From Phytohabitans rumicis (GTDB lineage: Bacteria; Actinomycetota; Actinomycetes; Mycobacteriales; Micromonosporaceae): 64,000 nt of DNA. The stretch's first letter is position 1, and each line of letters begins with the position of its first letter. The stretch covers positions 806,001 through 870,000 of the forward strand of contig NZ_BLPG01000002.1 in assembly GCF_011764445.1 (NCBI RefSeq), in the 5' to 3' direction. Shown in pieces: positions 5,818 through 47,640 of this stretch. Below the pieces are notes generated by a model. That model did not search any database and was not told the origin of the DNA. It saw nothing but the letters and a program-made list of their open reading frames with translations. The translations under genes and the position numbers were made by a program.

Positions 5818-5910
5818 AAGGACTTTCCCGTCGATCAAGGGCGAACGGTCGTGCTTTGATCTCCGATCCACGGCCATACGCCCTTGATCGGCGCGGAAGT
5901 CCTTGATCGG
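5818..5910. repeat. Intergenic palindromic repeat, copy A
   Basis: Two long imperfect inverted arms of about 36 bases enclose the loop CTTTGATCTCCGATC. The arms are built on GTCGATCAAGGGC and GCCCTTGATCGGC and extend outward to AGGACTTTCCC and GGAAGTCCTT. The element begins three bases after the fadE33 stop codon. The same element recurs at 20559, 31171, 32270 and 47527. A terminator-like or 3'-UTR role is inferred from placement. Confidence 0.85.
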
Positions 5911-6017
5911 CGGGGCGCGGGATGCCGGGCAGCGTCGTCTAGGGGACAGAGGTGGACGATGGCAGTGGTTCTGGTCAATGATGGGAGCGCGAAAGCATCG
6001 GTATTCACGGGGGAATC

Positions 6018-7091
6018 GTGGTGCTTCGACTGCATCTCACGACGGACGACCTTGCCCAGATTCGAGTGGCCACCGCGCCCGATCCCATGTGGGAGATCCT
6101 GCTCAGCCTGCACCTGCTCAGGAGCCGCGCCGCACCGGTGGCCTTCGGCGCGTGGCGCCGGGCGATGCGCGGCCGGCTGGCCGGCGCGGAGCGGGCGCGG
6201 ATCGAACCGCTGGTGCCGCTCGCGCCGCCGGTCGGATACTCGCCGGATTTCCTGACGCCGTCGCCGGGCGCGGCGGGCACGGCGGAGGGCATCGAGCGGG
6301 TCCTCGCCACGCCGCGGCGGCACCTGCGCGCCGATCTGACCCGGCTCGCCAGCCAGCGCCGGCTGCCCGGCTGGACCGGCGCGCTAGCCGACGGAGACCC
6401 GGCGACCCTACGCCGGCTCGGTACGGCGATCGCCGCCTATCACCAGGTCGCGGTCGCGCCGCACTGGCAGCAGATCCACGCCCGGTTCGACGCCGACCGG
6501 GCGCTGCGCGGACGGATGCTGCTCGACGGCGGCGTCGATCGCCTGCTGAACGGCCTCAACCCGGCCATCCGGTGGCGACCGCCGGTGCTGGAGATGCGGC
6601 ACTACCGCGCGGACCGCGACGTCGTGCTGGACGGACGCCCGCTGCTGCTGGTGCCGTCGTTCTTCTGCTGGCAGCACCCGATCAGCCTCTACGACTGGGA
6701 CCGCCCACCGACGCTCGTCTACCCGGTCAACCACGATGTGAGCTGGTTCGCCTCCGCCGCGCGCGGCGACCCGGAACGCCGGCTCAGCACGCTGCTCGGG
6801 CCGAGCCGCGCCGCCGTGCTCGACGCGATCGCCGCCGGCTGCACCACGACCGAGCTGGCGCGCCGGGTGGGGATCTCCCGGGCCGGCGCGAGCCAGCACG
6901 CCACCGCGCTGCGCGACGCCGGCCTGGTCGTGACGGCGCGGCTGGGCAAGGCCGTACAGCACACGCTCACGCCGCTCGGCGCGGCGCTCCTCGACGGTCC
7001 TGCCGCGACTAGCCACAGTGGACGAAAAGCCGGCTGCTTTCAGCGTGACGTGAAAGGAGTGGCCCGCTTCCGCGCCACCGGCGGAGGGTGA
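6018..7091 (+). CDS. ArsR-like winged-helix transcriptional regulator
   Basis: A 357-aa protein. Residues about 250-330 form a winged-helix domain of ArsR type: LGPSRAAVLDAIAAG, then TTELARRVGISRAGASQHA as the recognition helix region, then LRDAGLVVTARLGKAVQHTLTPLG as the wing. The first 240 residues are a helical domain common in actinomycete regulators of this type, with WEILLSLHLL near the N-terminus. GTG 6018 is the best start, with a GGGGGAA box nine bases upstream; a second GTG follows directly. It stands alone between the fadD3 operon and a secreted-protein gene. A link to steroid metabolism is not evident. Confidence 0.72.
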   Translation: MVLRLHLTTDDLAQIRVATAPDPMWEILLSLHLLRSRAAPVAFGAWRRAMRGRLAGAERARIEPLVPLAPPVGYSPDFLTPSPGAAGTAEGIERVLATPRRHLRADLTRLASQRRLPGWTGALADGDPATLRRLGTAIAAYHQVAVAPHWQQIHARFDADRALRGRMLLDGGVDRLLNGLNPAIRWRPPVLEMRHYRADRDVVLDGRPLLLVPSFFCWQHPISLYDWDRPPTLVYPVNHDVSWFASAARGDPERRLSTLLGPSRAAVLDAIAAGCTTTELARRVGISRAGASQHATALRDAGLVVTARLGKAVQHTLTPLGAALLDGPAATSHSGRKAGCFQRDVKGVARFRATGGG

Positions 7092-7133
7092 CATCGACAA
7101 GAGCACATCGAGCACCGTTCAGAAAGGACGGCC

Positions 7134-7592
7134 ATGTCACTCCTCCGTCGTCTCGGCACCCTTGGCGCCGCCCTCACCATGGGCGCGGTGGCCATGCTGG
7201 CCAACGCCGCGCCCGCCCAAGCCGCCGACGCGTACCCGTGCGGCCCGCAGTGGTGGCACTCCGGTCAGGGCCTGTACGTGCAGACCTGTCCCGACTGGTC
7301 GCCGAACAACTGGATCCCGGTCTACGAGTACAACGACGCGAACTCGCGCCAGGTGGGCCAGATCTACGCGCCCGGCGACGACTGGTACGTCTGCGACTAC
7401 CCGGGCGCGTCGCTGACCCGGTACGGCCTCACCAACAACTGGTGGGCGTTGACCGTCGCGGACAACGGCGCGGCCGGCTGGGTCAACGAGATCTACTTCC
7501 GCGGTGGCGGCACCAACGAACCCGACGCCACGCTCCGGGTCTGCCCGTTCTTCGCCTCCGGCAAGACCCTGCTGGGCGCGTCCGCCCGCTGA
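7134..7592 (+). CDS. Small secreted protein of unknown function
   Basis: A 152-aa protein with a clear Sec signal peptide: MSLLRRLG, a hydrophobic core, then AAPAQA with predicted cleavage after AQA at about residue 30. The mature part is about 120 residues, rich in Trp and Tyr (QWWHSG, NNWIPVYEY, DDWYVCDY, NNWWALTV). It has four cysteines, which suggests two disulfides. The β-rich pattern recalls small extracellular SH3-like or bacteriocin-like proteins, but no family is recognised. AGAAAGGA lies nine bases before the ATG. It is followed by a hairpin at 7608-7640. Confidence 0.72.
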   Translation: MSLLRRLGTLGAALTMGAVAMLANAAPAQAADAYPCGPQWWHSGQGLYVQTCPDWSPNNWIPVYEYNDANSRQVGQIYAPGDDWYVCDYPGASLTRYGLTNNWWALTVADNGAAGWVNEIYFRGGGTNEPDATLRVCPFFASGKTLLGASAR

Positions 7593-7607
7593 GCCCCTGG
7601 CGTCTCG

Positions 7608-7640
7608 CCCCGTCGATCAAAGTCTTCCGCGTCGACGGGG
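7608..7640. terminator. Hairpin terminator between convergent genes; degenerate half of the palindromic repeat
   Basis: CCCCGTCGA and TCGACGGGG form a perfect 9-bp stem around a 15-base loop. The left half carries GTCGATCAAAGTCTTCC, close to the outer arm of the intergenic repeat seen at 5818. It sits between the end of the secreted-protein gene and the end of hsaB, so a bidirectional terminator is likely. Confidence 0.6.
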
Positions 7641-7681
7641 AGAGGCGCCGGGCCCGCGTGGCGGGCGCACGCGGCCGGCGG

Positions 7682-11155
<3,474 letters not shown>

Positions 11156-19717: not shown

Positions 19718-20545
19718 ATGCCCATCGACCCCGCCGTCGCGATCGGTGCCGAGCTGCCCGGCCGCGACCTGTCCTGGACCACCACCGACGTGCTGCTCTA
19801 CCACCTCACGCTCGGCGCCCGCGCCACCGAGCTGCGGTACGTCTACGAGCGCGACCTGACGGTCCTGCCCACGTTCGCGGTGGTGACCGGCACGCTCGGC
19901 GAGACCGAGCCGCCCGCGCTCGACATGCCCGGCGTGGACATCAGCCTCGCCAGCACCCTGCACGGCGGCGAGGAGCTCGTCGTGCACAAGCCGTTGCCGC
20001 CCTCCGGCACCGCCCAGTCCCGGTCCCGGATCGCCGACGTGTACGACAAGGGCAGCTCGGCCATCATCGTGATCGAGACCGTCACCGACTACTTCACCAT
20101 CCGCAGGAGCGTCTTCGTCCGCGGCGAGGGTGGCTTCGGCGGCGACCGTGGCCCGTCCAGCCGGGTGCCCCCGCCGGACCGCGCGCCGGACACCGTCACG
20201 CTCAGCCCCACCTGGGCGGAGCAGGCGCTGTGGTACCGGCTCTGCGGCGACCGCAACCCCCTGCACGCCGACCCGGCGTTCGCCGCCATGGCCGGCTTTC
20301 CCGCCCCGATCCTGCACGGCCTGTGCACGTACGGGATGGTGTGCAAGGCGGTCGTGGACACGGTGCTGGACGGCGACCCGACCCGCGTGGCCGGCTTCAG
20401 CGCCCGCTTCTCCGGCGTCGTCTACCCCGGCGAGACCCTGCGCACCAGCATCTGGCGCCAGGACGACCGCCTGCTCGTCAACGCCACGGTGGTCGAGCGC
20501 GACGCCCCCGCCCTCTCCGACGCGGTCCTCACCATCCACGGGTAG
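19718..20545 (+). CDS. MaoC-type enoyl-CoA hydratase, ChsH3-like
   Basis: A 275-aa double-hotdog hydratase of the 17β-HSD type 4 hydratase-2 group. The N-terminal half covers LYHLTLGARATELRYVYERDLTVLPTFAVV. The C-terminal half carries the hydratase-2 motif around WYRLCGDRNPLHADPAFAAMAGFPAPILHGLCTYG, with the catalytic Asp and His. GGAGGACTGAT precedes the ATG one base after the kstD stop, so it is co-transcribed. The same kstD-hydratase order occurs as Rv3537-Rv3538 (ChsH3). It probably hydrates a side-chain enoyl-CoA. Confidence 0.85.
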   Translation: MPIDPAVAIGAELPGRDLSWTTTDVLLYHLTLGARATELRYVYERDLTVLPTFAVVTGTLGETEPPALDMPGVDISLASTLHGGEELVVHKPLPPSGTAQSRSRIADVYDKGSSAIIVIETVTDYFTIRRSVFVRGEGGFGGDRGPSSRVPPPDRAPDTVTLSPTWAEQALWYRLCGDRNPLHADPAFAAMAGFPAPILHGLCTYGMVCKAVVDTVLDGDPTRVAGFSARFSGVVYPGETLRTSIWRQDDRLLVNATVVERDAPALSDAVLTIHG

Positions 20546-20558
20546 CCGTCGGCATGGT

Positions 20559-20650
20559 TCGATCAAGGGATTCGACGTCGATCAAGGGCATACGGTCGTG
20601 GTTTAGAGATCAAAGCACGACCATATGCCCTTGATCGACGGGAAAGGGGC
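20559..20650. repeat. Intergenic palindromic repeat, copy C (inverted orientation)
   Basis: The outer GATCAAGGGATTCGACG is followed by the inner arms GTCGATCAAGGGCATACGG and CCATATGCCCTTGATCGAC around GAGATCAAAGCACG. Relative to copies A, D and E the loop is reversed. It lies between the convergent ends of the ChsH3-like gene and ltp2, where a bidirectional terminator would be useful. Confidence 0.85.
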
Positions 20651-20664: not shown

Positions 20665-21828
20665 CTATGCGCTGAGGATCAGGCCGCTGGTGGGGACGCC
20701 GGTGCCGGCGGTTACCAGGACCGGGCCGGCGCCGGCGACCTGGTTGGCGGCGGTGCCGCGGACCTGGCGTACCGCCTCGGCGATGCCGTTCATGCCGTGG
20801 ATGTACGCCTCGCCGAGCTGCCCGCCGTGCGGGTTGATCGGCAGCCGGCCGCCCAGCTCGATGGCGCCGTCGGCGATGAAGTGCCGGGCCTCGCCGCGCG
20901 GGCAGAACCCCAGCTCCTCCAGCTGGATCAGCACGTACGGGGTGAAGTGGTCGTACAGCACAGCCACCCGGACGTCGTCGGGTGCGAAGCCGGACTGCCG
21001 CCACAGCTGCTGGGCCACCACCCCCATCTCCGGCAGGCCGGGCAGGTCGTCGCGGTAGTAGCTGGTCATCACGTACTGGTCGGGCCCGCTGCCCTGGGCC
21101 GCGGCGCACACGAGCGCCGGCGGCCGGGGCAGGTCGCGGGCGCGCGCCGCGCTCGTCACCACCAGCGCGACCGCGCCGTCGCTCTCCTGGCAGCAGTCCA
21201 GCAGCCGCAGCGGCTCGGCGATCCACCGCGACGCCTGGTGGTCGGCCAGCGTGATGGGCCGCCCGTAGAACCAGGCGTGCGGGTTCGTGGCGGCGTGCCG
21301 GCGGTCGGCCACCGCCACCCGGCCGAAGTCCTCGCTGCCGGCCCCGTACTCGTGCTGGTAGCGGCGGGCCACCATGGCGACCATCGCGGCCGGGGTGGCG
21401 AGGCCCATCGGGTAGTGCCAGCCGGCGTCCACACCGGACGATGTGGGCGCCCCGGCCACGGCCCGCGACACCTGGCCGAAGCGGCGGCCGGACCGCTCGT
21501 TGAGGGCGCGGTAGCAGACGACCACCTCCGCCACACCGGTCGCGACGGCCATCGCCGCCTGCTGCACGACCGCGCACGCCGCTCCCCCGCCGTAGCCGAT
21601 CTGGCTGAAGAAGGTCAACTGCGGCAGGCCGAGCTCGCGCGCCACCGCGATCTCCAGGTTGCTGTCCATGGTGAACGTCGCGAGCCCGTCCACATCGGAT
21701 GGCGAGAGTCCGGCGTCGGCGAGGGCGGCCCGTACCGCCTCCACCGCGAGGCGCAGCTCGCTGCGGCCGGAGTCCTTGCTGAACTCGGTCGCCCCGATGC
21801 CGGCGATCGCGGCCGTCCGGGCGATCAC
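20665..21828 (-). CDS. ltp2: Steroid side-chain thiolase-like aldolase Ltp2
   Basis: A 387-aa thiolase-superfamily protein of the SCP-2/lipid-transfer type: AAIAGIGATEFSKDSG at the start, then FFSQIGYGGGAACAVVQQAA, DHFTPYVLIQLEELGF, and INPHGGQLGEAYIHGMNGI near the end. Ltp2 carries out the retro-aldol cleavage of 17-hydroxy-3-oxo-pregnene-carboxyl-CoA, releasing propionyl-CoA and androstenedione. It works together with the DUF35 domain of ChsH2. The GTG start (21828) overlaps the chsH1 stop by GTGA. It ends the six-gene side-chain operon and corresponds to Rv3540c. Confidence 0.9.
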   Translation of the reverse strand: MIARTAAIAGIGATEFSKDSGRSELRLAVEAVRAALADAGLSPSDVDGLATFTMDSNLEIAVARELGLPQLTFFSQIGYGGGAACAVVQQAAMAVATGVAEVVVCYRALNERSGRRFGQVSRAVAGAPTSSGVDAGWHYPMGLATPAAMVAMVARRYQHEYGAGSEDFGRVAVADRRHAATNPHAWFYGRPITLADHQASRWIAEPLRLLDCCQESDGAVALVVTSAARARDLPRPPALVCAAAQGSGPDQYVMTSYYRDDLPGLPEMGVVAQQLWRQSGFAPDDVRVAVLYDHFTPYVLIQLEELGFCPRGEARHFIADGAIELGGRLPINPHGGQLGEAYIHGMNGIAEAVRQVRGTAANQVAGAGPVLVTAGTGVPTSGLILSA

Positions 21829-28628: not shown

Positions 28629-30284
28629 TCACGACGCGGCGATGTCCCGGCCGGCGACGTACGCGAATGTCATGGCCGGACCCAGCGTGGAGCCGGCGCC
28701 GGCGTAGCTGCGCCCCATCACCGCGCCGCTGGCGTTTCCGGCGGCGTACAGGCCGGGGATCACGGTGCCGTCCGGGCGCAGCGCGCGGGCGCGGGCGTCG
28801 GTGCGGATGCCACCCTTGGTGCCCAGGTCACCGGGCACGATCTTGAACGCGTAGTACGGCGGCAGCCACAGCGGCGCCAGGCACGGGCTGGGCTGGTTGG
28901 TCGGGTCGGCGAAGTACGCGTCGTACGTGCTGTCGCCGCGGTGGAAGTCGGTGTCCTGCCCGGCGCGGGCCATCGCGTTGAACCGGTTGATCGTCGCGCG
29001 CAGCGCCGCCGGCGGCACCCCGATCTTCGTGGCGAGCCCCTCGATGGTCCAGTCCCGGTGTAGCGCGCCGCTGTTGTACCAGGCGTCCGGGTACGGCAGG
29101 GCCGGCGAGACGTCCTTGAACAGGTACCGGTTGCGGTACTGCTGGTCGGTGACCATCCAGCACGGGATGTGCGGCGCCTGCGGGGTGTCCTTCTCGTACA
29201 TCACGTGCACCACGTCGCTGTACGGCGCGGCCTCGTTGACGAACCGGTTGCCGGCGGCGTTGACGAAGATGTTGCCCGGCAGGGTGCGCTCGGACAGGCA
29301 GAAGTAGGGCCCCTCGGGCAGCGGGATCATCGGCCCCCACCACGCGTCGTCCATCAACTCCAGCGCGGCGCCGGCCCGCGCGCCGGCCTCGATCCCGTCG
29401 CCGGTGTTGGACGCGGCGCCGACCGTCCAGTTCACGCCGATCGGCTCCTGCTGGAACTGCTTGCGCATGCGCTCGTTGTGCTCGAAGCCGCCGGACGCGA
29501 CGAGCACGCCGCGCCGGGCCCGGACGAGGATCTCGGCGCCGTCCCGGATCGCCCGCACGCCGGCCACCCGGCCGCCCTCGACGTACAGGTCGGTGAGTGG
29601 GGTGTTGAGCCAGACCGGCACGTCCGCGGCGATCAGCCCGGCGCGCAGACCGCCGGCCAGCGCCTGCCCCATCGTGATGGGCTTCTGCCCGAGGAACGCG
29701 GCCGCCAGGTACCGCCGGACGATCTCGGTGGCGGTGGCCAGGCCGCGCGGGTGGCGCGCGATGAGGGCGAGCCACTTGTAGTCCACCGCCATGACCACGG
29801 TGCCGGCCGGGACCGCCAGGTAGGCCGGGTTCAGGTTCGCGTACTCGGTGCCGAGGATGTTGGCGTCCAGCGGCGCCGGCTCGATGGAGCGGCCGTTCGG
29901 CATCCCGCCGTACAGCTCGGGATAGTAGTCGGGGTAGCTCTCCATGAAGGAGAACCGCAGCGGCGTCTCGCGCAGCAGAAACGAGATCATCGCCGGCCCG
30001 TTGGCCAGGTACGCCTGCTGCCGCGCGGCGGGCACGTCCGGGCCCACCACGGCCGACAGGTACGCCGCGGCCTTGGCGGGCGTGTCCGGCACACCGGCGG
30101 CGAGGACGACCTCGTTGCCGGGCACCCAGATGCCGGCGCCGGAACGGGCGGCCGAGCCGCCGTACTTCGCCGCCTTTTCGATGACGAGGGTCCGCAATCC
30201 CTGCTTCGCGGCGGCCAGCGCGCCGACCATGCCCGCTCCGCCGGCACCGACCACGACGACGTCGTACTCCACCACGGCTGCCAT
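28629..30284 (-). CDS. 3-ketosteroid Δ1-dehydrogenase, copy 2
   Basis: A 551-aa KstD-family flavoprotein. Visible are VVVVGAGGAGMVGALAAAKQG (FAD), GGSAARSGAGIWVPGNEVVL, ESYDPD-type YPDYYPELYGGMPNGRS, GAASNTGDGIEAGARAG and NASGAVMGRSYAGAGSTLGP at the C-terminus. It is clearly paralogous to the kstD at 18076 but diverged. The GGMP segment and GRSYAGAG replace GGLP and GHSYAGAG, so substrate preference may differ. AAGGAGG lies just before ATG 30284 and an exact KstR operator 19 bases upstream. Multiple KstDs with different steroid ranges are known in Rhodococcus. Confidence 0.88.
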   Translation of the reverse strand: MAAVVEYDVVVVGAGGAGMVGALAAAKQGLRTLVIEKAAKYGGSAARSGAGIWVPGNEVVLAAGVPDTPAKAAAYLSAVVGPDVPAARQQAYLANGPAMISFLLRETPLRFSFMESYPDYYPELYGGMPNGRSIEPAPLDANILGTEYANLNPAYLAVPAGTVVMAVDYKWLALIARHPRGLATATEIVRRYLAAAFLGQKPITMGQALAGGLRAGLIAADVPVWLNTPLTDLYVEGGRVAGVRAIRDGAEILVRARRGVLVASGGFEHNERMRKQFQQEPIGVNWTVGAASNTGDGIEAGARAGAALELMDDAWWGPMIPLPEGPYFCLSERTLPGNIFVNAAGNRFVNEAAPYSDVVHVMYEKDTPQAPHIPCWMVTDQQYRNRYLFKDVSPALPYPDAWYNSGALHRDWTIEGLATKIGVPPAALRATINRFNAMARAGQDTDFHRGDSTYDAYFADPTNQPSPCLAPLWLPPYYAFKIVPGDLGTKGGIRTDARARALRPDGTVIPGLYAAGNASGAVMGRSYAGAGSTLGPAMTFAYVAGRDIAAS

Positions 30285-30411: not shown

Positions 30412-31134
30412 ATGACCGACAGCGGGCGCAGCTACCACACCATCGGGGACCCGGCCGAGGTGGAGGCCGAGACCGAGTCGCTGCGCGACCGGCGCGCGGC
30501 GATCACGGAGCTGGGCGACGCGCTGCGCACCCTGGTCGAGCAGGCGGCGGCCACCGAAGCCCCGGCCGACGAGCTGCGTCGCGCGGCGGCGCTCGTCCGG
30601 GAGGCGACCATTCCGGTCGGCAAGCAGCAGCGGGAACGCGGTCAGATGCCGACCGCCGACGACCTGCTCGGCGGCGTGCGGATGTACAACCCGGTGTGCG
30701 GGTCCGGCAGCGCGCTCGCACCGCCGCTGCTCATCGAGCTGGGCGCCGGCGGCGTCACCGGCAGCTGCACGCTCGGCCTGGCGTACGAGGGGCCGCCGAT
30801 GTACGCCCACGGCGGCGTCAGCGCACTCCTGCTCGACCAGATCCTCGGGTACGCCACGAGCGCGTCCGGGCACCCCGGCATGACGGTGCGGCTGGACACC
30901 GAGTATCGGGCGCCGGTGCCCCTGCAAACCGAGCTGCGGCTGAGCGCCGAAGTAGTCAACGTGGACGGTCGCAAGGTCACCGCCCGAGCGACCATCGCCA
31001 CCGCCGCCGAGCCCGACCGCGAGTTGGTGGTGGCGACCGGGCTCTTCATCGCGCTGCGCGCCGACCAAGCCATCCGCCTCTTCGGCACCGTACTGCACCC
31101 AGACGCCTCAAACCCCGCGGTCGCCCACGACTGA
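30412..31134 (+). CDS. Hotdog-fold acyl-CoA thioesterase (PaaI-like)
   Basis: A 240-aa protein with a helical N-terminal extension of about 85 residues followed by one hotdog domain. The core is YEGPPMYAHGGVSALLLDQILGYATSASGHPGMTVRLDTEYRAPVPL, where HGG and the following Asp form the usual thioesterase site. It is divergent from kstD copy 2 across KstR sites. It could release CoA from stalled steroid acyl-CoA esters or recycle CoA. No clear counterpart in the M. tuberculosis cluster is known to me, so the steroid role is inferred from context only. Confidence 0.8.
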   Translation: MTDSGRSYHTIGDPAEVEAETESLRDRRAAITELGDALRTLVEQAAATEAPADELRRAAALVREATIPVGKQQRERGQMPTADDLLGGVRMYNPVCGSGSALAPPLLIELGAGGVTGSCTLGLAYEGPPMYAHGGVSALLLDQILGYATSASGHPGMTVRLDTEYRAPVPLQTELRLSAEVVNVDGRKVTARATIATAAEPDRELVVATGLFIALRADQAIRLFGTVLHPDASNPAVAHD

Positions 31135-31170
31135 CCCCGCCCCTCGCGCGCCCGCGCCGCTCCCTCTGTG

Positions 31171-31274
31171 CGTCGATCAAGGACTTCGCCGTCGATCAAG
31201 GGCATATGGTCGTGCTTTGATCTCTTTTCCACGACCGTTTGCCCTTGATCGACGGCGAATCCCTTGATCGACGC
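31171..31274. repeat. Intergenic palindromic repeat, copy D
   Basis: The outer arms CGTCGATCAAGGACTTCGCC and GGCGAATCCCTTGATCGACG surround the inner arms GTCGATCAAGGGCATATGG and CCGTTTGCCCTTGATCGAC. The loop is CTTTGATCTCTTTTC. This is the most complete copy, with two nested inverted repeats. It follows the thioesterase gene and precedes the KstR operator of the LLM gene. Confidence 0.87.
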
Positions 31275-31344: not shown

Positions 31345-32214
31345 ATGAGGTTCACGCTGGGGATCGCGCTCAACCCGCTTGACCAGCTCATTGAACTGGC
31401 ACGTACGGCCGAGGAGTGCGGCTACTCCGCCATCGCGCTGCCGGACTCGATCTTCTACTCCGAGCAGGTCGCGGCCGCGTACCCGTACACCAAGGACGGC
31501 AGCCGGTTCTGGGGCGCCGACACGCCGTGGGCCGACCCGCTGGTCGCCGCGGCCGCGATGGGTGCCGCCACCACCCGGATCCGCTTCTACACCCAGGTGC
31601 TCAAGCTCGGCCCGCGCAACCCGGTGCTGCTGGCCCGGCAGGTCGGCTCGGTGGCCGTCCTGACCGGCAACCGCTTCGGCCTCGGCGTCGGGCTCGGCTG
31701 GACCCCCGAGGAGTTCGAGTGGTGCGGCGCGCCGTTCACCGACAAGGGCGCCCGGGCCGACGAGTCCATCGAGGTGCTCCGGCTCATCCTCGGCGGCGGC
31801 ATGGTCGCGTACGACGGCCGGCACTTCCGCTTCGACAAGCTGCAGATGAGCCCGGCGCCGACCGCGCCGGTGCCGATCTACGTGGGCGGGCACACCGACG
31901 CCGCCCTGCGCCGGGCGGCCCGCACCGGGGACGGCTGGACGTCCGCCATGATGCGCTTCGACAAGCTGCGCGCGACCATCGCGCGCCTGGCGGAGCTGCG
32001 TGCGGAGTACGGCCGGGAGGCCACGCCGTTCGAGGTGCAGGCGGTGTGCGTGGACCGCTTCGGGCTGGACGGCTACCGCCAGCAGGCCGAGATCGGCGTC
32101 ACCGACGCGATCGTGGTGCCCTGGCTCCTCTACGGCGCAGGCTTCGACGCCACCCTGGCCGAGAAGAAGGACGGCCTCCGCCGATTCGCCGACGACGTCA
32201 TCGCCGCCCTCTGA
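31345..32214 (+). CDS. LLM-class F420-dependent oxidoreductase
   Basis: A 289-aa luciferase-like TIM-barrel protein. It begins RFTLGIALNPLDQLIELARTAEECGYSAIALPDSIFY and has LGPRNPVLLARQVGSVAVLTGNRFGLGVGLGWTPEEFEWCG in the core, typical of actinobacterial F420 enzymes. PIYVGGHTDAALRRAARTGDGW is the phosphate-binding end. A comparable F420-type gene, Rv3520c, belongs to the M. tuberculosis steroid locus. ATG 31345 is chosen because the KstR operator and likely promoter lie immediately upstream; longer readings run through the operator and the repeat. The substrate is unknown. Confidence 0.85.
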   Translation: MRFTLGIALNPLDQLIELARTAEECGYSAIALPDSIFYSEQVAAAYPYTKDGSRFWGADTPWADPLVAAAAMGAATTRIRFYTQVLKLGPRNPVLLARQVGSVAVLTGNRFGLGVGLGWTPEEFEWCGAPFTDKGARADESIEVLRLILGGGMVAYDGRHFRFDKLQMSPAPTAPVPIYVGGHTDAALRRAARTGDGWTSAMMRFDKLRATIARLAELRAEYGREATPFEVQAVCVDRFGLDGYRQQAEIGVTDAIVVPWLLYGAGFDATLAEKKDGLRRFADDVIAAL

Positions 32215-32217
32215 CCC

Positions 32218-32268
32218 CCGCGCTCCTCCCCGCGCTCCTCCCCCGCGCTCCTCCCCCGCGCTCCTCCC
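32218..32268. repeat. Short C-rich tandem repeat
   Basis: About four tandem units of CGCGCTCCTCCCC(C) follow the stop of the LLM gene directly and lead into palindromic copy E. Units are 12-13 bases with small length variation. No coding sense is visible. Confidence 0.75.
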
Positions 32269-32269
32269 C

Positions 32270-32354
32270 CGTCGATCAAGGGCATATGGTCGTGCTTTGA
32301 TCTCTAATCCATGACCTTTTGGCCTTGATCGACGCGAAAATCCTTGATCGACGG
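32270..32354. repeat. Intergenic palindromic repeat, copy E
   Basis: GTCGATCAAGGGCATATGGTCGTG, loop CTTTGATCTCTAATC, then CATGACC and GGCCTTGATCGACG, with an extra TCCTTGATCGACG arm on the right. The right inner arm has more mismatches than the other copies. It lies between the convergent LLM and sulfotransferase genes. Confidence 0.82.
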
Positions 32355-35724: not shown

Positions 35725-36774
35725 ATGACGGAGACCATGCGCGCGTACCGGATGACGGAGTGGACGGCGCCGCCGCGTGCGGTGGAGGTCGACGTGCCGT
35801 CGCCGGGTCCCGGCCAGGTGCTGGTCCGGGTGGCGGGCTGCGGCCTGTGCCGCTCCGACCTGACCATGCGGCAGATCCCCCGGGTCGCCGGCGAGCGGCT
35901 GGGCTGGGCGATGCCGTTCACGCTCGGGCACGAGACCGCGGGCCGGATCGCGGCGCTCGGTGCGGGCGCCGGCGGTCTTTCCGAGGGCGACGCGGTCGCG
36001 CTCGTCTCCGCCACGTCGTGCGGCAGCTGCTGGTTCTGCGTGCGCGGCCTGGACAACTCCTGTCCACAGGGGACGACCGGCCGGGGGTACGGCCGGGACG
36101 GCGGGCTCGCCGACTACGTGCTGGCCGACCGGCGCGCCCTGCTCCCGCTGGGCTCGCTCGACCCGCGGCACGCCGGGCCGCTCACCGATGCGGGCGCGAC
36201 CGCCTACCACGCCGTACGCCGGGCGCTGCCGCGCATCGCGCCGGGCGGCACCGCCGTGGTGCTCGGGGCCGGCGGACTCGGCGCGTTCGCGGTGCAGTTC
36301 CTGCGGGTGCTGACCGCGGCCCGGGTCGTCGCGGTCGATCCGAGCGAGGACCGCCTGGCGTACGCCCGCGCGATCGGGGCCCACGAGGCGCTGCCCGGTG
36401 TGGACGGGTCCACTGTGGGCCAGCTCCGCAGGCTCACCGAGCGGCGGGGCGCGGACGCCGTGCTGGACTTCGTCGGCACGGACGCGACGATCGCCGCCGG
36501 TGTCGCCTCGGTGCGGCCGGGTGGCGCGTTCGGGCTGGTCGGCTCGGCCGGCGGCGGCCTGGCCACGGGGTGGTTCGGCGCCCTACCGCGCGACGGCGAG
36601 GTGTACACGTTCCAGGGCGCCAGCATCGCCGACGCCCAGGAGGTGATCGGCCTGGCCGGCGCGGGCCTGATCCAGAACGAGGTCGAGGAGTTCTCGTTCG
36701 ACCGTGCCGGCGACGCGTACGCCGGCCTGGCGGCCGGCACCCTGAAGGGCCGCGCCGTAGTGGTCCTCGACTAA
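35725..36774 (+). CDS. Zinc-dependent alcohol dehydrogenase (MDR family)
   Basis: A 349-aa medium-chain dehydrogenase. Catalytic zinc residues fit GCGLCRSD and FTLGHETAGRI. The structural-zinc lobe is CGSCWFCVRGLDNSC with four Cys. The NAD-binding VVLGAGGLGAFAVQFLRVL is at about residue 180. AGGAGG lies upstream of ATG 35725, and a KstR operator precedes it, so it likely oxidises an alcohol in sterol degradation, for instance at the side chain. It is the last gene of the steroid island and is followed at once by a hairpin element. Confidence 0.85.
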   Translation: MTETMRAYRMTEWTAPPRAVEVDVPSPGPGQVLVRVAGCGLCRSDLTMRQIPRVAGERLGWAMPFTLGHETAGRIAALGAGAGGLSEGDAVALVSATSCGSCWFCVRGLDNSCPQGTTGRGYGRDGGLADYVLADRRALLPLGSLDPRHAGPLTDAGATAYHAVRRALPRIAPGGTAVVLGAGGLGAFAVQFLRVLTAARVVAVDPSEDRLAYARAIGAHEALPGVDGSTVGQLRRLTERRGADAVLDFVGTDATIAAGVASVRPGGAFGLVGSAGGGLATGWFGALPRDGEVYTFQGASIADAQEVIGLAGAGLIQNEVEEFSFDRAGDAYAGLAAGTLKGRAVVVLD

Positions 36775-36780
36775 CGCGCT

Positions 36781-36850
36781 CCCCGTCGATCTTGAGGTTA
36801 TCAGGTGCCATTTCGGGCATCCGGGCATGACAACTTCAAGATCGACGCTT
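36781..36850. repeat. Hairpin related to the palindromic repeat family, copy F (divergent)
   Basis: CGTCGATCTTGA and TCAAGATCGACG are perfect outer arms. The inner GTTATCAGGTGCC pairs imperfectly with GGGCATGACAAC. The design (GTCGATC outer arms directly after a stop codon) is that of copies A-G but with TTGA inverted to CTTGA. It begins six bases after the alcohol dehydrogenase stop; a terminator role is likely. Confidence 0.65.
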
Positions 36851-42338: not shown

Positions 42339-42342
42339 GTGT

Positions 42343-42391
42343 TAGGAAGGGCCCCTGCTATGCAAAAAGCGTTAACAGGGTGCCCTTCCTT
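42343..42391. terminator. Bidirectional terminator hairpin
   Basis: AGGAAGGGCCCCTGCTA (42344-42360) pairs with TAACAGGGTGCCCTTCCT (42373-42390) around TGCAAAAAGCGT. It is a near-perfect 17-bp stem between convergent genes, and the stop of the leftward DUF3068 gene is inside it. From memory, hairpins with this AGGAAGGGC core are common in Micromonosporaceae genomes. Confidence 0.8.
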
Positions 42392-43431
42392 GCAGTTCGG
42401 GTCAGCAGGAATAGCACGACCGCGGCGAGGATCAGCAGGATGCCGACGATGAGCAGGATCAGCGGCAGCGTCGTATCGGCGAGGTCGAGCGTGTCCTTCT
42501 TGTCCTTCGCGTCGCTGGCCGCCTCACCGGCGCTCGCCGACGTGTACGCGACCGCGACGTCGAACACGGGCAGCACCGCCGCGATCGTCCTGCCCTGCAC
42601 GGACAGCCCGGCCTTGCGGGTCTCCGCGCGCTGGACGTCGACCACGAGCCCGGTCCTCGGTTCCACCCAGTACGTGGTCTGGGCCTCGTAGGTGTAACTG
42701 AGCGGCACGGGCTGGGTCACCTGCGGCAGCAGCGCCGCCAGCTGGCTCTTGAGCTCCGGCGTCAGCGGCAGCACCGCCGAGAGCGCCTCCAGGGTGCTGA
42801 CCGGCAGCGCCGTCGGCAGCGCCTGGAGCACCTGCGGGTCCTTGACCGGCGCGGCCTCCGCGTTGGCCTCGTAGACGTACGTGGTGAGGCCGTTCTTGGT
42901 CTCCTCGCGCAGGTACTTCAGCGGCGTGGTGGTCTGCGTCTCCTGCACCCAGCCGGTGTAGTCCTTCTTGTCCGCGCCGATCGGCCAACTCACCGTCAGC
43001 CCCTGCGCGGCGGTCACCTGCCAGTCGGACGGATGGTCGGAGGTGGCCTCCAGCGTCTTGCGGTCGACCGCGTAGCTCGCCTGGGTCTGCCCGACCGTCT
43101 GGCCGCTGGTGGTGGTCAGCGTGCGGCTGTCCTGCATCTGCGCGGTATCGCCGCTGGTGGCGAGGGTCTTGACCGTGCGGGTGGCCGCCACCGGCGTGTT
43201 GACCAGGAGTGCCGACTGCAGGTCGCCGGTGTTCAACGCCTGCGGGTTGAGCAGGACCTTCGCCGTTCCGTCGAACTGGCGGGTCGTGCTCTCGTCGGAC
43301 GGCACCCGGGCCTGGTTCGGCACGACGACCCACTTGAGGATGGCCGCGGCCGCCAGGCACAGCACGCCCAGAACAGCGAGGCCCACGACGAGCACACGCC
43401 GGGAGCTCGATGACATGCCTGAGTCAACCAT
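42358..43431 (-). CDS. DUF3068 family membrane-anchored protein
   Basis: A 357-aa protein with an N-terminal membrane segment (VLVVGLAVLGVLCLAAAAILKWVVVP), a long extracytoplasmic β-rich domain and a C-terminal membrane helix (LPLILLIVGILLILAAVVLFLL). This is the DUF3068/PorA-like layout of actinobacteria. The outer domain has YLREETKNGLTTYVYEANAE and TYWVEPRTGLVVDVQRAE. The last residues (KGTLLTLFA) are encoded by the terminator stem. ATG 43431 and ATG 43416 are both possible starts. The function is unknown; a cell-envelope role is likely. Confidence 0.8.
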   Translation of the reverse strand: MVDSGMSSSSRRVLVVGLAVLGVLCLAAAAILKWVVVPNQARVPSDESTTRQFDGTAKVLLNPQALNTGDLQSALLVNTPVAATRTVKTLATSGDTAQMQDSRTLTTTSGQTVGQTQASYAVDRKTLEATSDHPSDWQVTAAQGLTVSWPIGADKKDYTGWVQETQTTTPLKYLREETKNGLTTYVYEANAEAAPVKDPQVLQALPTALPVSTLEALSAVLPLTPELKSQLAALLPQVTQPVPLSYTYEAQTTYWVEPRTGLVVDVQRAETRKAGLSVQGRTIAAVLPVFDVAVAYTSASAGEAASDAKDKKDTLDLADTTLPLILLIVGILLILAAVVLFLLTRTARKGTLLTLFA

Positions 43432-43473
43432 GATGAAGCGGTGGAAAATGGCGGTTTTGAGATATAGGCGCTA

Positions 43474-43899
43474 ATGGCGGCTTTTACTCGGTTCATGGCT
43501 GACGTGGCGGGGCTGACGTTCACCGAGCTGATGGAGCACGTGGCACAGGGCTTCGAGGCGTTCGGCGTACTGGTGCTGATCGTGGGGTTGATCTGGTCGC
43601 TCACCGTGGCGGCCCGGATCCGCCGCGCGGAGGGCAACCAGCCCGCGTACCGCGCGATCCGGCGGCTCTTCGGCGGGGTGCTGCTGCTGGGCCTGGAGAT
43701 CCTGGTCGCCGCCGACCTCATCCGCACCGTGGCGGTTTCCCCGACGCTGGAGAGCGTGGCGATCCTCGGCCTGATCGTGGTGATCCGGACGTTCCTCAGC
43801 TTCTCCCTCGAGATCGAGATCGAGGGCGTGGTGCCCTGGCGGCGCGCCCTGATGGGCAGCGGCGCGCGCGGCGATCCGACCCGACGCCCGGACGGCTAG
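43474..43899 (+). CDS. DUF1622 family membrane protein
   Basis: A 141-aa protein with three hydrophobic helices: EAFGVLVLIVGLIWSLTVAA, FGGVLLLGLEILVAADLIRTV and SVAILGLIVVIRTFLSFSLEIEIEG. The conserved VIRTFLSFSLE..EG block ends the domain, as in DUF1622. It is divergent from the DUF3068 gene by 42 bases. Its stop TAG shares bases with the stop of the convergent next gene (CTAG). No function has been assigned to the family. Confidence 0.83.
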   Translation: MAAFTRFMADVAGLTFTELMEHVAQGFEAFGVLVLIVGLIWSLTVAARIRRAEGNQPAYRAIRRLFGGVLLLGLEILVAADLIRTVAVSPTLESVAILGLIVVIRTFLSFSLEIEIEGVVPWRRALMGSGARGDPTRRPDG

Positions 43900-44480
43900 G
43901 ACGGGCCGGCATCGGTGGCACGGTTCGCCTGCCGTACCCGCCGGACGCTGTGCACCACCACCGCGGTCGCCGGCGTGGCCAGCGCCATCCCCGCGACCCC
44001 CGGCCACGGCACCACCCAGGAGCTGTACAGGCCGAGCGCGACGCCGACGACGGTGCCGAGCAGGTTGCTCAGCACGGGCGCCAGGCCGGCCAGGAGAACG
44101 TCCGCCGAGCCGTACACCGATTGCGGGTCAACGTCACCGAGCTCGCTGGCGGCCGCGTCGACGTTCGCCCTGATCTCGTCCTTCTGCCGGAGCACTCCCC
44201 AGACGACGAGCGCGGTCGCGCCGGCGGCCAGCGCGATCACGATCAGCAGGGCGGCGACGGCGCCGGCCGCCCGGGGAACGCCGCGGTGGTCCACCGCGTC
44301 GACGACCGGCATGAACGCGATGGCCAGGAACAACGCCACCACCAGGGCGAGCAGGATCGGCCGCAGCACGACGACGAGGAGCCCCGCCGCGGCGAGCAGC
44401 AGGACCACCCCGACGAGCGACCAGGCCACGGCGCCCGCGGCGCGCAGCCGGTCCGCCATCCCCGCCATGCCGGTAAGCAT
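43896..44480 (-). CDS. Short AI-2E-transporter-like membrane protein
   Basis: A 194-aa integral membrane protein. Residues about 10-110 look like the N-terminus of AI-2E family permeases: VVLRPILLALVVALFLAIAFMPVVDAVDHRGVPRAAGAVAALLIVI, then the soluble AAASELGDVDPQ linker. AI-2E proteins are normally about 350 aa with eight helices; here the second half is reduced to one further hydrophobic stretch. It is either a truncated relative or a distinct short family. The start is ATG 44480; later Met codons at 44468 and 44459 are alternatives. Confidence 0.6.
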   Translation of the reverse strand: MLTGMAGMADRLRAAGAVAWSLVGVVLLLAAAGLLVVVLRPILLALVVALFLAIAFMPVVDAVDHRGVPRAAGAVAALLIVIALAAGATALVVWGVLRQKDEIRANVDAAASELGDVDPQSVYGSADVLLAGLAPVLSNLLGTVVGVALGLYSSWVVPWPGVAGMALATPATAVVVHSVRRVRQANRATDAGPS

Positions 44481-44533
44481 GCCGCCAGACCACGGCCCGC
44501 ACGCGTCGATCGGCGGGAACGGGGGGCTTGGTG

Positions 44534-45598
44534 CTACTGGCGGGTGGCGATCAGGGTCACGATCGCGGCGATCACCAGGAGCGCGGCGAGCACGGCGGCA
44601 ATGATCTTGGGAACGCTGTACGGGCGCTCGCCGGCGACCTCGCCGCTGCGCCCGTTGACCAGGACGGTGTACGTCTTGCCGGCATGCAGGTAGCAGGCGA
44701 CCCAGACCGGCAGCAGCATGAGCTTGAACATGACGTCGTGGTACGCGGTGTCGACCTGGTGCAGCCGCTGCTCGTCGCCGCCGATGTCGCGCTCGCAGTC
44801 GTCCCGGATCACCGAGGCCATGTGGGCCTTCGCCGTCTCCAGACCGCTTTCCGGCTCGACGTCGTAGCGCAGCGTCTCGTGGCCGGCGAGGTATTCGGGC
44901 CGGTACGCCTCGGCGTTGCGCAGCGGCCACGGCTCCAGCGCGTCCAGGTGCTTGGGGGTCACCCGGGTCGTACCGGCCACCAGCAGGTCGTCGAAGTCGC
45001 GGGACACCGTGCCGCGCGCGGCCCGCCACCGGGTCTTGCGCACCTTGCGGGACTTGGTCTGGCCGTTCTCGGTGTAGTTCTCGGTGTCCCAGTAGTGGTC
45101 GCCGCGCTCACCGGAGTAGTCGGAGACGGTCCCGGCGTCGTACGTCCAGTGCGGCAGGTAGGTGCCGCGCGACGACTCGGCCTCGGTGACCTTCTTCAGC
45201 CCGTTCGGCGCGAACCAGCGCGACGAGGCCCATCCGCGCAGCGCGGAGCGCATCTGGCCGCGGTCGACGGCGAACGGCAGCACCGCCTCGGGCGTCACCA
45301 TGTCGCCGTGCGGGCCGCCGCTGACCAGCGGCGCGCCGCAGAACTGGCAGCGGTCGGAGATCTTGTCGGTCTCGGTCACCGCACCGCAGCCCCGGCAGGT
45401 GAACGCCTGCGGTGCGAGCGCGCTCACCGGCTTGCGCGGCAGTTGGGCGAACTCGGCGTACGCGTGCTCGCGCACCCGCAGCCCGGTCGGTTGCAGTGGC
45501 GTGCTCGCGCCGCAGTACGGGCAGGCCAGGACCGTGGTGCCCGGCGCGTATTCGACGTTGGCCCCGCAACTCCCGCAGGGGTACTGGGTTGGGCTCAT
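44534..45598 (-). CDS. Zinc-ribbon protein with C-terminal membrane helix
   Basis: A 354-aa protein. The N-terminus holds two zinc ribbons: PCGSCGANVEYAPG with ACPYCGAS, and FTCRGCGAVTETDKISDRCQFCGAPL (four CxxC pairs in the first 95 residues). A β-rich middle contains GWASSRWFAPNGLK and YLPHWTYDAGTVSDYSGERGDHYW. It ends in one membrane helix (IIAAVLAALLVIAAIVTLIA). ATG 45598 overlaps the stop of the SPFH gene, so the two are co-transcribed. Such pairs recall TFIIB-type zinc-ribbon/SPFH neighbours of unknown role. Confidence 0.75.
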   Translation of the reverse strand: MSPTQYPCGSCGANVEYAPGTTVLACPYCGASTPLQPTGLRVREHAYAEFAQLPRKPVSALAPQAFTCRGCGAVTETDKISDRCQFCGAPLVSGGPHGDMVTPEAVLPFAVDRGQMRSALRGWASSRWFAPNGLKKVTEAESSRGTYLPHWTYDAGTVSDYSGERGDHYWDTENYTENGQTKSRKVRKTRWRAARGTVSRDFDDLLVAGTTRVTPKHLDALEPWPLRNAEAYRPEYLAGHETLRYDVEPESGLETAKAHMASVIRDDCERDIGGDEQRLHQVDTAYHDVMFKLMLLPVWVACYLHAGKTYTVLVNGRSGEVAGERPYSVPKIIAAVLAALLVIAAIVTLIATRQ

Positions 45599-46704
45599 GC
45601 CTGCGGCGGCAGCGGCGGCGGTACGGCGGCGAAGACGCCGCCGAGCTCGGGCACCTGGCCGGCCGCGGTCCACCCGGCCATGCCGTCGGCCCAGACCAGC
45701 GTCTCCCGGGTCAGCGTGCCGGCCCGGGCCTGTCCGGCCAACCCGGCCGCGTCGAACGGGCCGAGTTGCTGCCCGTTGGCGCCGACGAACCACTGCTTGA
45801 CCGGCAACGGCGGCGGCCCGGCTGTCGGGACCGGTGGCGGTGCCGGCGCCGGCGGGTTGAGCGACTGGCCGGCCCGCTGGGCGGCGGCCATGCCGAGCCC
45901 GAAGCCGAACGCCTCGCCGGCGCCGCCCGGGTTGTTCGCCGCGTCCTCCACGGCGTTGGCCGTCTGGAACTTCGCGTACTGGTCCAGGTCGCCGAGCACC
46001 CCGATCGAGGCGCGCTTGTCCAGCGCCTCCTCCACCTCGGGCGGCACGGAGATGTTCTCGATCACGAACTTCGGGATCGCGATGCCGGAGCTGGACAGCT
46101 CGTCACCGAGCACCGCGGCCAGCGCGTTGCCGATGCTCAGCTGCTGCGCGGCCAGCTCGAGCAGTGGCACGTTGGCGGTGGCCAGCGCGCTGCCGAGGTG
46201 GCTGACGACCAGCTGCCGCAGGTACTCGTGCACCTCCTCGGTGCGAAACTGCGCGTCGGTGCCGACCAACTCGCGCAGCAGCGCCGCCGGGTCGGTCACC
46301 CGCAGCGTGAACGAGCCGAACGCGCGCAGCCGGACCGCGCCGAACTCCGCGTCCCGCACGATCACCGGGTTCTGCGTGCCCCACTTCAGCCCGGGAAACT
46401 GCCGGGTGTTGACGAAGTAGACCTCGGCCTTCCAGGGCGACTCGAAGCCGTACTTCCAACCCTTGAGGGTGCTCAGGATCGGCAGATTCTTCGTGGTCAA
46501 CGTGTAGGTGCCCGGCGTGAACACGTCGGCGATCGAACCCTCGTTGACGAAGACCGCCGCCTGCGACTCGCGGACGATGAGCTTGGCGCCCATCTTTATC
46601 TCGTTCTCGTACCGGGGGAACCGCCACACGATGGTGTCCCGGCTGTCGTCGGTCCACTCGATGACATCGATCAGCTCACCCTTGAGCTTGTCCCACAGAC
46701 CCAC
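45595..46704 (-). CDS. SPFH-domain protein with C-terminal GYF_2 domain
   Basis: A 369-aa protein. Residues about 20-250 are an SPFH/virion-core-like domain (LIVRESQAAVFVNEGSIADVFTPGTYTL; PVIVRDAEFGAVRLRAFGSFTLRV). A proline-rich linker follows, then a C-terminal GYF_2 module: WFVGANGQQLGPFDAAGLAGQARAGTLTRETLVWADGMAGWTAA. GTG 46704 gives the usual MGLWDKLKGELIDVIEW start of this family. It overlaps the zinc-ribbon gene by ATGA. The family probably forms membrane-associated assemblies; the cellular role is unknown. Confidence 0.85.
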   Translation of the reverse strand: MGLWDKLKGELIDVIEWTDDSRDTIVWRFPRYENEIKMGAKLIVRESQAAVFVNEGSIADVFTPGTYTLTTKNLPILSTLKGWKYGFESPWKAEVYFVNTRQFPGLKWGTQNPVIVRDAEFGAVRLRAFGSFTLRVTDPAALLRELVGTDAQFRTEEVHEYLRQLVVSHLGSALATANVPLLELAAQQLSIGNALAAVLGDELSSSGIAIPKFVIENISVPPEVEEALDKRASIGVLGDLDQYAKFQTANAVEDAANNPGGAGEAFGFGLGMAAAQRAGQSLNPPAPAPPPVPTAGPPPLPVKQWFVGANGQQLGPFDAAGLAGQARAGTLTRETLVWADGMAGWTAAGQVPELGGVFAAVPPPLPPQA

Positions 46705-46837
46705 GGCGCCCCTGACGGTCCCCCGACGACTTGATCGACGCGGCGGCAGCGACGCTAGCAACCCTCCGCCACCGTGACCACCCCGGCCGGCGATCCAGAA
46801 CCCGGCCGGGCCGGGTCCGCCCAGTAGGTTTGCCCGC

Positions 46838-47596
46838 ATGGCACACATCCTCGACCGCGCGCTCTGGGCATCGCTGTCCGGCCCGCACGCACACCTCGCC
46901 GAGGTCAACGGGCAGGCCATGCGCTACGCCCCGGACGTCGCGCCGTTCGCCGTACTGCGGCCGGACCACGACGGCCGGGCCTGGGACGACCTGGCCGAGC
47001 TGGTCGGGCCGGGTGAGCGGACCGCGCTGGCCGGTGCCGACCCGACCGCCCCGCCGGCCGGCTGGGAGGTGGACGACGCGATCGACGGCGTCCAACTCGT
47101 GGACAGCACGCTGCGGGCCACTCCCGACCCGGAGGCCGTCCCGCTGGGCCCGGACGACCTGCCCGAGATGCTCGACCTGGTAGCGCGCACCGAGCCCGGC
47201 CCGTTCCGGCAACGGGCCATCGAACTCGGCGCGTACCTGGGCATCCGCCGCGACGGGCAGCTCGTCGCCATGGCCGGCGAACGCCTGCACCCACCCGGCT
47301 GGACCGAGATCAGCGCGGTCTGCACCGACCCCGCGTACCGCCGGCTCGGCCTCGCCACCCGCCTGATCCGCGCGGTGGCCGCCGGGATCCGCGGCCGCGG
47401 CGAGACCCCGTTCCTACACGCGGCGGCCTCGAACACGACCGGGATCCGGCTCTACGAGTCGATCGGGTTCACCCTGCGCCGCAAGACCGTGTTCCTGTCC
47501 GTCCGCGCACCGGGCACACCGTCCACAAGGACTTTCGCGTCGATCAAGGGCAAACGGTCGTGGATCGGAGATCAAAGCACGACCGTTCGCCCTTGA
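46838..47596 (+). CDS. GNAT-family acetyltransferase with repeat-encoded C-terminal tail
   Basis: A 252-aa GNAT protein. The acetyl-CoA loop is SAVCTDPAYRRLGLATRLIRAVAAG at about residues 165-190, followed by FLHAAASNTTGIRLYESIGFTLRRKTVF. The last 23 residues or so (from about TRTFASIKG to DQSTTVRP) are encoded by the palindromic repeat copy G, which contains the stop codon. The ancestral stop was probably near residue 228. ATG 46838 is the start. The gene is divergent from the SPFH operon. The substrate is unknown. Confidence 0.83.
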   Translation: MAHILDRALWASLSGPHAHLAEVNGQAMRYAPDVAPFAVLRPDHDGRAWDDLAELVGPGERTALAGADPTAPPAGWEVDDAIDGVQLVDSTLRATPDPEAVPLGPDDLPEMLDLVARTEPGPFRQRAIELGAYLGIRRDGQLVAMAGERLHPPGWTEISAVCTDPAYRRLGLATRLIRAVAAGIRGRGETPFLHAAASNTTGIRLYESIGFTLRRKTVFLSVRAPGTPSTRTFASIKGKRSWIGDQSTTVRP

Positions 47597-47640
47597 TCGG
47601 CGGGCATTCCCTTGATCGGCGGGCATTCCCTTGATCGGCG
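47527..47640. repeat. Intergenic palindromic repeat, copy G, fused into the GNAT gene end
   Basis: AGGACTTTCGCGTCGATCAA begins the left arm, and CACGACCGTTCGCCCTTGATCG the right. The loop GATCGGAGATCAAAG is in the reversed orientation. The right flank then repeats GGCGGGCATTCCCTTGATC twice in tandem, so one outer arm is duplicated. The element covers the last 70 bases of the GNAT reading frame. Confidence 0.85.

Follow-up and report, generated by a model that had tools for sequence, protein, structure and literature searches.

Why does one nested palindrome recur at the ends of genes along a stretch of actinobacterial DNA, and what might it do there? The stretch, here called the window, comprises 64,000 nt (C2:806001-870000) of the 10.7-Mb genome of Phytohabitans rumicis, a member of the Micromonosporaceae (genome G000, hereafter the host). 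A preliminary description had reported five full copies of an element with nested arms, an inner stem and a CTTTGATCTC loop in both orientations, and a covariance model, whose training copies include 5829-5912, recovered all five at 91.6-100.6 bits with the anatomy as claimed. Arms at up to 2 mismatches occur 21 times in the window (2.5 expected, maximum 6 in 100 shuffles), and the five full copies fold with z-scores of -6.5 to -13.6. We propose, with a confidence slightly better than even, that the element represents a repetitive extragenic palindromic (REP)-like family of portable transcript 3'-end or terminator modules found in part of the Micromonosporaceae.

We looked at the anatomy and placement of the element in a sample of 1.904 Mb of the host (18% of the genome, 36 blocks drawn non-randomly), where genes were called with our own gene caller and a hidden Markov model was built, giving 93 full copies. 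Read in the orientation of the loop, the hairpin consists of CGTCGATCAAGGGC, an 11-nt inner arm, CTTTGATCTC-N5, the matching inner arm and GCCCTTGATCGACG, 65 nt in all with small changes allowed, which form a stem of 25 bp and a loop of 15 nt with the polar motif TGATCTC. About 7 nt further 3', a second half-arm, CCTTGATCGGCG, completes a 19-nt tail. Exactly one 3' half-arm is present in 87 of the 93 copies (none in 4, two in 2), and 5' half-arms are lacking in 55, single in 35 and more numerous in three. This variable stack of 19-bp half-arms accounts for the second, outer inverted repeat previously noticed in some copies, which proved to be one or more extra half-arms. The core stem is very stable (mean -45 kcal/mol); at least 3 T in the 8 nt past the stem were found in only 12 of 89 copies, thus most copies are U-poor and the U-rich tract of an intrinsic terminator directly 3' of the stem could be recognized at best in this minority. 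We also considered a locus-specific longer stem formed by C-rich and G-rich flanks and discarded it, as the real flanks performed no better than swapped ones (p 0.63, 0.69).

The family is abundant in the host, as the 13-mer arm has 941 exact matches in the genome (reversed control, 0) and 529 strict hairpins were counted, defined as GATCWAGGGC...GCCCTWGATC with only the outer 10-mers fixed. Among the 93 sampled copies, 43 are convergent, 37 co-directional and 9 divergent; of the remaining four, two overlap gene calls and two are located at the edge of a block. The statement that the element never sits in divergent promoters is therefore correct for the five copies of the window but not genome-wide; nor do copies lie mostly in genes or divergent promoters (9 and 2 of 93), the distribution that the preliminary description had named as contrary to a terminator role. 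Considering the gaps available, an element is hosted by 33 of 183 convergent gaps (18%), 30 of 765 co-directional and 7 of 180 divergent ones (3.9% for the latter two together), a 4.6-fold convergent excess (Fisher test, 9.6e-10 vs co-directional and 1.6e-5 vs divergent). We propose that this excess arises because a palindrome serves both strands.

Convergent enrichment of this strength would also be expected of a putative DNA-level site, a cruciform or a protein- or gyrase-binding sequence relieving or isolating supercoiling between convergent units. Bacterial interspersed mosaic elements (BIMEs) of E. coli have been discussed as supercoiling-relief or gyrase sites, and each unit of the present family contains several (C/T)TTGATC cores and a loop conserved beyond the needs of pairing. 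However, 37 of the 93 copies are co-directional, and the rewriting of the inner stem with pairing kept, described below, points to a folded strand, not the duplex sequence, as what is recognised. We consider a DNA-level site very unlikely.

The position of stop codons is more in line with a 3'-end module. Facing stops within 250 nt (n = 89) were found only 5' of the loop in 35 copies, only 3' in 12, on both sides in 19 and on neither in 23, a 5'-side bias with a sign test of 0.001 at 250 nt and 0.049 at 400 nt. Moreover, neighbouring copies up to 2.5 kb apart point inward (+/-) in 17 of 25 cases, with 4 +/+, 4 -/- and 0 outward (-/+), as expected if each copy caps its own side, and many convergent gaps have a separate copy at each gene end. 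The centres between +/- pairs (L095, L099, L083, L035 and others) are mosaics of further repeats, many of them palindromic and shared by distant sites; open frames were listed for one such 2-kb centre (L043:15244-17304).

A second line of evidence is the composition of the 5' side. In loop orientation, the 20-80 nt 5' of the element contain 50-53% C and 24-27% G (skew +0.33 to +0.35), and the C-G skew per 20 nt remains at +0.26 to +0.35 over the first 100 nt, compared with 0.009 in the first 60 nt past 285 element-free gene stops. The upstream RNA would thus be C-rich and G-poor, as for Rho-type ends. At orthologous ends that differ in the presence of the element, where tblastn was extrapolated to place the stops in the second species and some control stretches may fall in neighbouring coding DNA, the skew was higher on the element side in 11/11 cases (0.40 vs -0.07, p 0.001). 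The two sides of 110 element-free orthologous pairs gave -0.02 and -0.01, and the difference persisted (8/8, 0.36 vs -0.07, p 0.008) when three ends were excluded whose measure covered just 15 nt, inside the element or overlapping it.

We also asked what happens at single gene ends within the genus, taking as congener set the genomes G000-G005, in which the nearest named relative of the host is Micromonospora sp. CPCC 205371 (taken to be G001, as counts and places are identical). At the end of an NlpC/P60 gene, each of G002-G005 shows one 65-nt hairpin whose arms are related to those of the element and whose tail is spaced alike; in three of these genomes the arms differ by a paired A-to-G/T-to-C change. 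The amplified element occupies this end in G001, and a hairpin of the type found at 36781 in the window does so in the host (L314). Likewise, at C1:4,103,956 the place of the G001 element is taken in the host by yet a different perfect hairpin. At these two loci the genus retains a hairpin although not its sequence family, which would point to selection for a gene-end hairpin. The 36781-type represents a second, rarer family located at gene ends, with arms like (C)GT(C/T)GATCTTG(A/G)(A/G)GTT(A/G)TCA; it was found at 36783-36850 of the window, with a similar one near C1:4254611, and at the NlpC/P60 end in L314, and replaces the main element at one orthologous site.

Convergent enrichment, a C-rich tract whose presence follows that of the element and two swapped ends therefore favour the terminator or 3'-end role suggested earlier; Rho action and transcript termination or protection at the element are predicted from sequence. 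The unit would consist of a C-rich, G-poor tract followed by the 65-nt hairpin, with conserved GATCWAGGGC as outer arms, an inner stem specific to the lineage and the polar TGATCTC loop, the 19-nt half-arm following the hairpin in the genus of the window. A transcript running past the gene would expose the C-rich tract, on which Rho could load or polymerase could slow, and the hairpin would set the final 3' end, either as a U-poor terminator stopping polymerase and/or as a block to 3'-5' exonucleases. Copies may stem from a lineage-specific master hairpin via non-Y1 mobilisation or copying and would persist where useful or harmless, at gene ends. Term-seq of the high-GC actinobacterium Streptomyces clavuligerus revealed structured, U-lacking 3' ends, for which the available portion of PMC8269248 draws a comparison to I-shaped terminators and Rho-dependent ends. 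The element resembles them as a strong GC-rich hairpin placed after genes with no U-tract, and this likeness of a stable U-poor stem favours a 3'-end module made of C-tract plus hairpin. It differs in being one sequence with a conserved loop reused hundreds of times, while the U-lacking ends are not described as a repeat family in that portion of PMC8269248.

Several observations weigh against the 3'-end module. The loop is not biased towards the direction of transcription in co-directional gaps (15 vs 10, p 0.42), and 30 of 89 host copies have no facing stop on their C-rich side. As the C-rich flank persists even at copies lacking a facing stop (mean skew +0.30 and +0.19), it may be part of the element and not a Rho utilisation (rut) site. 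The frequency of other hairpins at element-bearing 3' ends (3 of 26, against 21 of 309, in regions of differing length) speaks neither for nor against the module. At the NlpC/P60 end, G015 and G069, which belong to another genus, have no hairpin, the next gene beginning there. Finally, in the cores from 17 genomes discussed below, inner-stem pairing is weakly protected within genomes, with 718 paired positions vs a mean of 688 after swapping and 2/2000 swaps reaching 718.

We asked whether the copies without facing stop were an artefact of the gene finder. Open frames were re-scanned near 32 copies (these 30 plus the 2 overlapping genes) and no missed gene was convincing by eye in composition or translation, which led us to reject this explanation. 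Neither were RNA genes found within 600 nt of such copies, the tRNA scan covering all 21 loci that contain the 30 copies plus L078 and the Rfam scan 20 of the 21 plus L078, with L152 and L149 left out. At C1:505131-505707 (L032) and C1:6212071-6212595 (L145), triple head-to-tail copies have duplicated flanks and lie in gaps with no facing stop on the C-rich side; these triples are local tandem amplifications.

The distribution of the family within the genus is very uneven. G001 contains 898 arm near-matches over both strands and 341 strict hairpins, and G002-G005 contain 1-5 exact arms and 1-3 model matches each. In the window, the gene ends of the thioesterase (31190 copy) and of the lipid-transfer protein (20557 copy) have the element in CPCC 205371 too. 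Results of a broader comparison between a 400-kb host block and 240 kb of G001 showed that, whichever species the count starts from, 1 of 8 elements close to orthologous ends is common to both, and that clear element-free orthologous sites exist; together, mostly unshared and element-free sites indicate turnover. Inspection of the compared empty sites by eye revealed no clear target duplication; the sister species is too diverged (about 79-85% DNA identity across the alignments inspected) for duplications to be read there. At least ten draft contigs of G001 start within about 70 nt of an element (C32:41, C43:36, C62:35, C75:7, C128:36, C133:30, C143:42, C153:45, C154:30, C163:2), thus short-read assemblies are probably interrupted at the hairpin repeat, and what surrounds the gene ends is hidden in draft genomes.

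Within each species the copies resemble each other. The inner stem is GCACGTG in G001 and GGTCGTG in the host, changed on both sides (25/25 vs 0/40 aligned copies): pair 20-46 is GC in 40/40 host copies and CG in 25/25 congener copies, and pair 21-45 is AT in 0/40 and 25/25, respectively. These alignments contain 40 of 89 usable host copies and 25 of 27 congener copies (A2, two weak ones dropped), 11 of the 25 having been found via a pattern containing GCACGTG and 14 not. All 12 copies found by the host model on one G001 contig have the GCA-type stem, and none of the 93 host copies does. The earlier claim that arm changes are often compensated is thus clearly right between species and only weakly so within the genome, where pair 21-45 of the host has C-A mismatches in 10/40 copies vs 8.8 expected by chance.

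Such a pattern is also what a selfish REP-like or miniature inverted-repeat transposable element (MITE)-like repeat might leave, inserted everywhere by a transposase, without host function, and being purged from genes, operons and promoters. It would account for the leap from 1-5 exact arms to hundreds of copies within a genus, the mostly different positions in the two rich species, the species-own master inner stems, the repeat mosaics between paired elements and the one third of copies not at a facing stop. Selfish spread alone leaves unexplained the polar C-rich tract and the pairing rule (0/25 outward), the retention of arms, loop and pairing across genera, and the sites shared between G245 and G343 (4/8); we regard it as unlikely, though with appreciable weight. 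A reading combining spread and function, which we consider clearly unlikely, is that of self-spreading gene-end signals. Outer arms and TGATCTC loop would be read on the folded strand by a non-Y1 enzyme, and the inner stem would be a lineage dialect, rewritten on both sides and re-propagated genome-wide (GGTCGTG vs GCACGTG). Each copy would bring or build a C-rich Rho-loading tract and install a terminator, even replacing other hairpin families at orthologous ends.

Coming back to the 3'-end module, we asked how far it extends beyond the genus. The covariance model detected the family at E <=0.001 in at least 28 of 150 genomes of the Micromonosporaceae, with up to 30 candidates scored per genome, and the outer-10-mer pattern was found in 39 of 354 (control, 0). 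Core geometry, judged by reading, was shared as a 55-57-nt core by 17 of these 39 genomes, from six genera, and in 15 the one or two hairpins present differ in geometry, the remaining 7 lying outside that reading. Genomes rich in copies are G000, G001, G069, G049, G059, the G343/G245/G333 group and G068, beside the copy-poor congeners G002-G005 on the one hand and G011, G087, G103 and G116 on the other. We collected 84 cores from the 17 genomes (every core listed, supplemented by three apiece from G000 and G001 and by a single one from G069). With orientation set by the GATC loop motif, GATC is at position 25 in 81/84 and GATCT(C/T) occurs in 75/84. The inner arms, left free in the search, pair at 718/924 positions compared with a mean of 570 and a maximum of 609 in 2000 swaps over all cores, and with one core per genome 81% of positions are paired vs 61% swapped. 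The element is therefore not specific to one lineage, as had been supposed, since relatives with other inner stems exist in at least six genera.

Of twenty-one copies in Micromonospora genomes G343, G245 and G333, 12 are convergent and 0 divergent; the 5' flank contains more C than G in 21/21, and a gene on the 5' side is co-oriented in 17/21 (one of them 1.4 kb off). Four of the eight fetched G245 sites match G343 sites at 88-91% DNA identity, thus elements there are inherited vertically. Rfam matches on 20 Micromonospora loci were limited to two cobalamin riboswitches, neither on an element; in L325, the riboswitch lies beside the element on the opposite strand.

How the copies multiply is a separate question. 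The preliminary description had pointed to a REP-associated tyrosine transposase (RAYT), and we found no Y1 transposase (Y1_Tnp, RAYT/TnpA-REP, PF01797) in 6/6 genomes of the genus (G000-G005); spread by RAYT is thus unlikely and was rejected for the genus. PF01797 is also absent in 9 of 10 other element-bearing genomes, G333 having three, and 5 of 14 control genomes were positive. The comparison with REPs and MITEs nevertheless holds in kind, considering that the element is a lineage-amplified, high-copy intergenic palindrome, mainly convergent and at gene 3' ends, with pairs in opposite orientation; the RAYT and the limit to a single lineage did not stand. REP-like repeats at convergent or 3' sites are of a known kind, according to the available part of PMC3733652.

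That part of PMC3733652 describes GTAG REPs, BIMEs and REPINs as short palindromes, often in hundreds of copies, intergenic, mostly convergent or co-directional and near 3' ends. The element shares with GTAG REPs the high copy number, intergenic location, opposite-orientation pairs and species-specific families (PMC3733652, same part). Unlike them, it has a polar loop and a C-rich tract, lacks the Y1 transposase in G000-G005 and has no GTAG foot unpaired 5' of the palindrome in the aligned copies, the 5' neighbour being the C-rich tract or an extra half-arm. Its 65-nt hairpin with a 25-bp stem also exceeds the 20-50 nt given for GTAG REP palindromes in the portion of PMC8266576 at hand. CGTC REPs (Di Nocera et al. 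2013) have an unpaired CGTC, a stem of 8-9 bp, a loop of 4-5 nt and a CCA-like tail; their hosts are Proteobacteria, Chlorobi, Bacteroidetes, Spirochaetes and Thermotogae, the word Actinobacteria being absent from the main text (PMC3733652, in part). Our element likewise starts with CGTC, lies at 3' ends and has no known dedicated transposase. Unlike theirs, its CGTC is paired with GACG in the folds (CGTCGATC/GATCGACG), in a stem of 25 bp closed by a 15-nt loop, so the element does not qualify as a CGTC REP. As with MITEs, the element is non-coding, has inverted repeats and is present or absent at orthologous sites, but the whole unit is one hairpin and no parent transposon was recognised in the sample, in which no systematic search was made. 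The element matches neither REP super-family and Rfam has 0 matches in the window. We file it as a REP-like variant; full-text literature searches found no title on this family that would provide a name.

Hundreds of copies, a gene-end hairpin arrangement and species-specific versions would also suit an uptake-signal-like sequence, an analogue of the DNA uptake sequences (DUS) of Neisseria or the uptake signal sequences (USS) of Pasteurellaceae, with inverted pairs doubling as terminators and drifting into dialects; DUS dialects are the topic of PMC3630211, as far as its available text goes. Against such a role, isolated 9-mer arms are rare (41/361 away from full elements, 22 of these in called genes), the whole 65-84-nt unit is conserved, and the would-be signal, the outer arm, is the shared part and not the dialect. 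An uptake signal is therefore extremely unlikely.

Should the 3'-end module be right, a bacterial family rich in drug producers would possess a sequence-tagged module for ending genes, reusable and open to searching, mapping and use as a part. Moreover, two sister species with hundreds of copies and differing inner-stem dialects, next to near-empty congeners, would offer a clean test for REP-like spread without RAYT.

The family is not spread evenly along the host genome. Full copies are absent from 400 kb at 7.0-7.4 Mb (C1:7000001-7400000) and from six 20-kb blocks between 0.6 and 1.52 Mb (600001-1520000), with single arms present. As these copy-free blocks have a lower GC (0.67-0.71), a lower GC at third codon positions (GC3) and often a lower coding density, the elements mark one genome compartment; the element-free one looks like acquired DNA.

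The features of the window are collected in Table 1. Two further sites had been listed as degenerate copies. That at 36781, which folds at -34.9 kcal/mol (z -7.0), has arms of a different hairpin family, and that at 7608 is a fragment at best.

Table 1. Element copies and associated features in the window, with positions counted from its first nucleotide
Feature	Position	Strand	Details
Fragment with one arm-like half, membership doubtful	7608..7640	.	17.8 bits, E 0.017
Full element	5829..5912	+	98.3 bits; hairpin 5829-5893, loop CTTTGATCTC forward, tail (3' half-arm) 5894-5912; 3' of acyl-CoA dehydrogenase gene 4771-5814 (stop 5812-5814)
Full element	20557..20640	-	96.4 bits; hairpin 20576-20640, tail 20557-20575, loop on minus strand; in the convergent gap of gene 19718-20545 (+) and the thiolase-like lipid-transfer protein gene 20665-21828 (-)
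C-rich tract from stop codon to element	31135..31170	+	Read from sequence
Extra 5' half-arm, 19-bp CGTCGATCAAGG.. unit	31171..31189	+	Belongs to the 31190 copy, makes an outer inverted repeat
Full element	31190..31273	+	100.6 bits; after thioesterase gene 30412-31134 (+)
C/T-rich, G-poor tract from stop codon to hairpin	32215..32269	+	Repeated GCGCTCCTCC units; read from sequence
Full element	32270..32353	+	91.9 bits; after F420 luciferase-like monooxygenase (LLM) oxidoreductase gene 31345-32214 (+)
Hairpin of the other family, CGTCGATCTTGA.../...TCAAGATCGACG	36783..36850	.	After gene 35725-36774 (+); no covariance-model match
Full element	47520..47602	-	91.6 bits; loop on minus strand; flanked by GNAT gene 46838-47596 (+) and by gene 47671-48135 (-)
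Pair of additional half-arms, CCCTTGATCGGCG repeats spaced 19 bp	47603..47640	-	On the 5' side in loop orientation

In the last full copy, the right arm of the element itself supplies the in-frame TGA (47594-47596) of the GNAT frame. Several genes of acyl-CoA or steroid-catabolism type are found between 4771 and 48135, among them those for an IpdE2-like acyl-CoA dehydrogenase, the thiolase-like lipid-transfer protein and a MaoC hydratase. The gene at 28629-30284 is putatively KstD-like, and genes of the window presumably belong to a steroid pathway.

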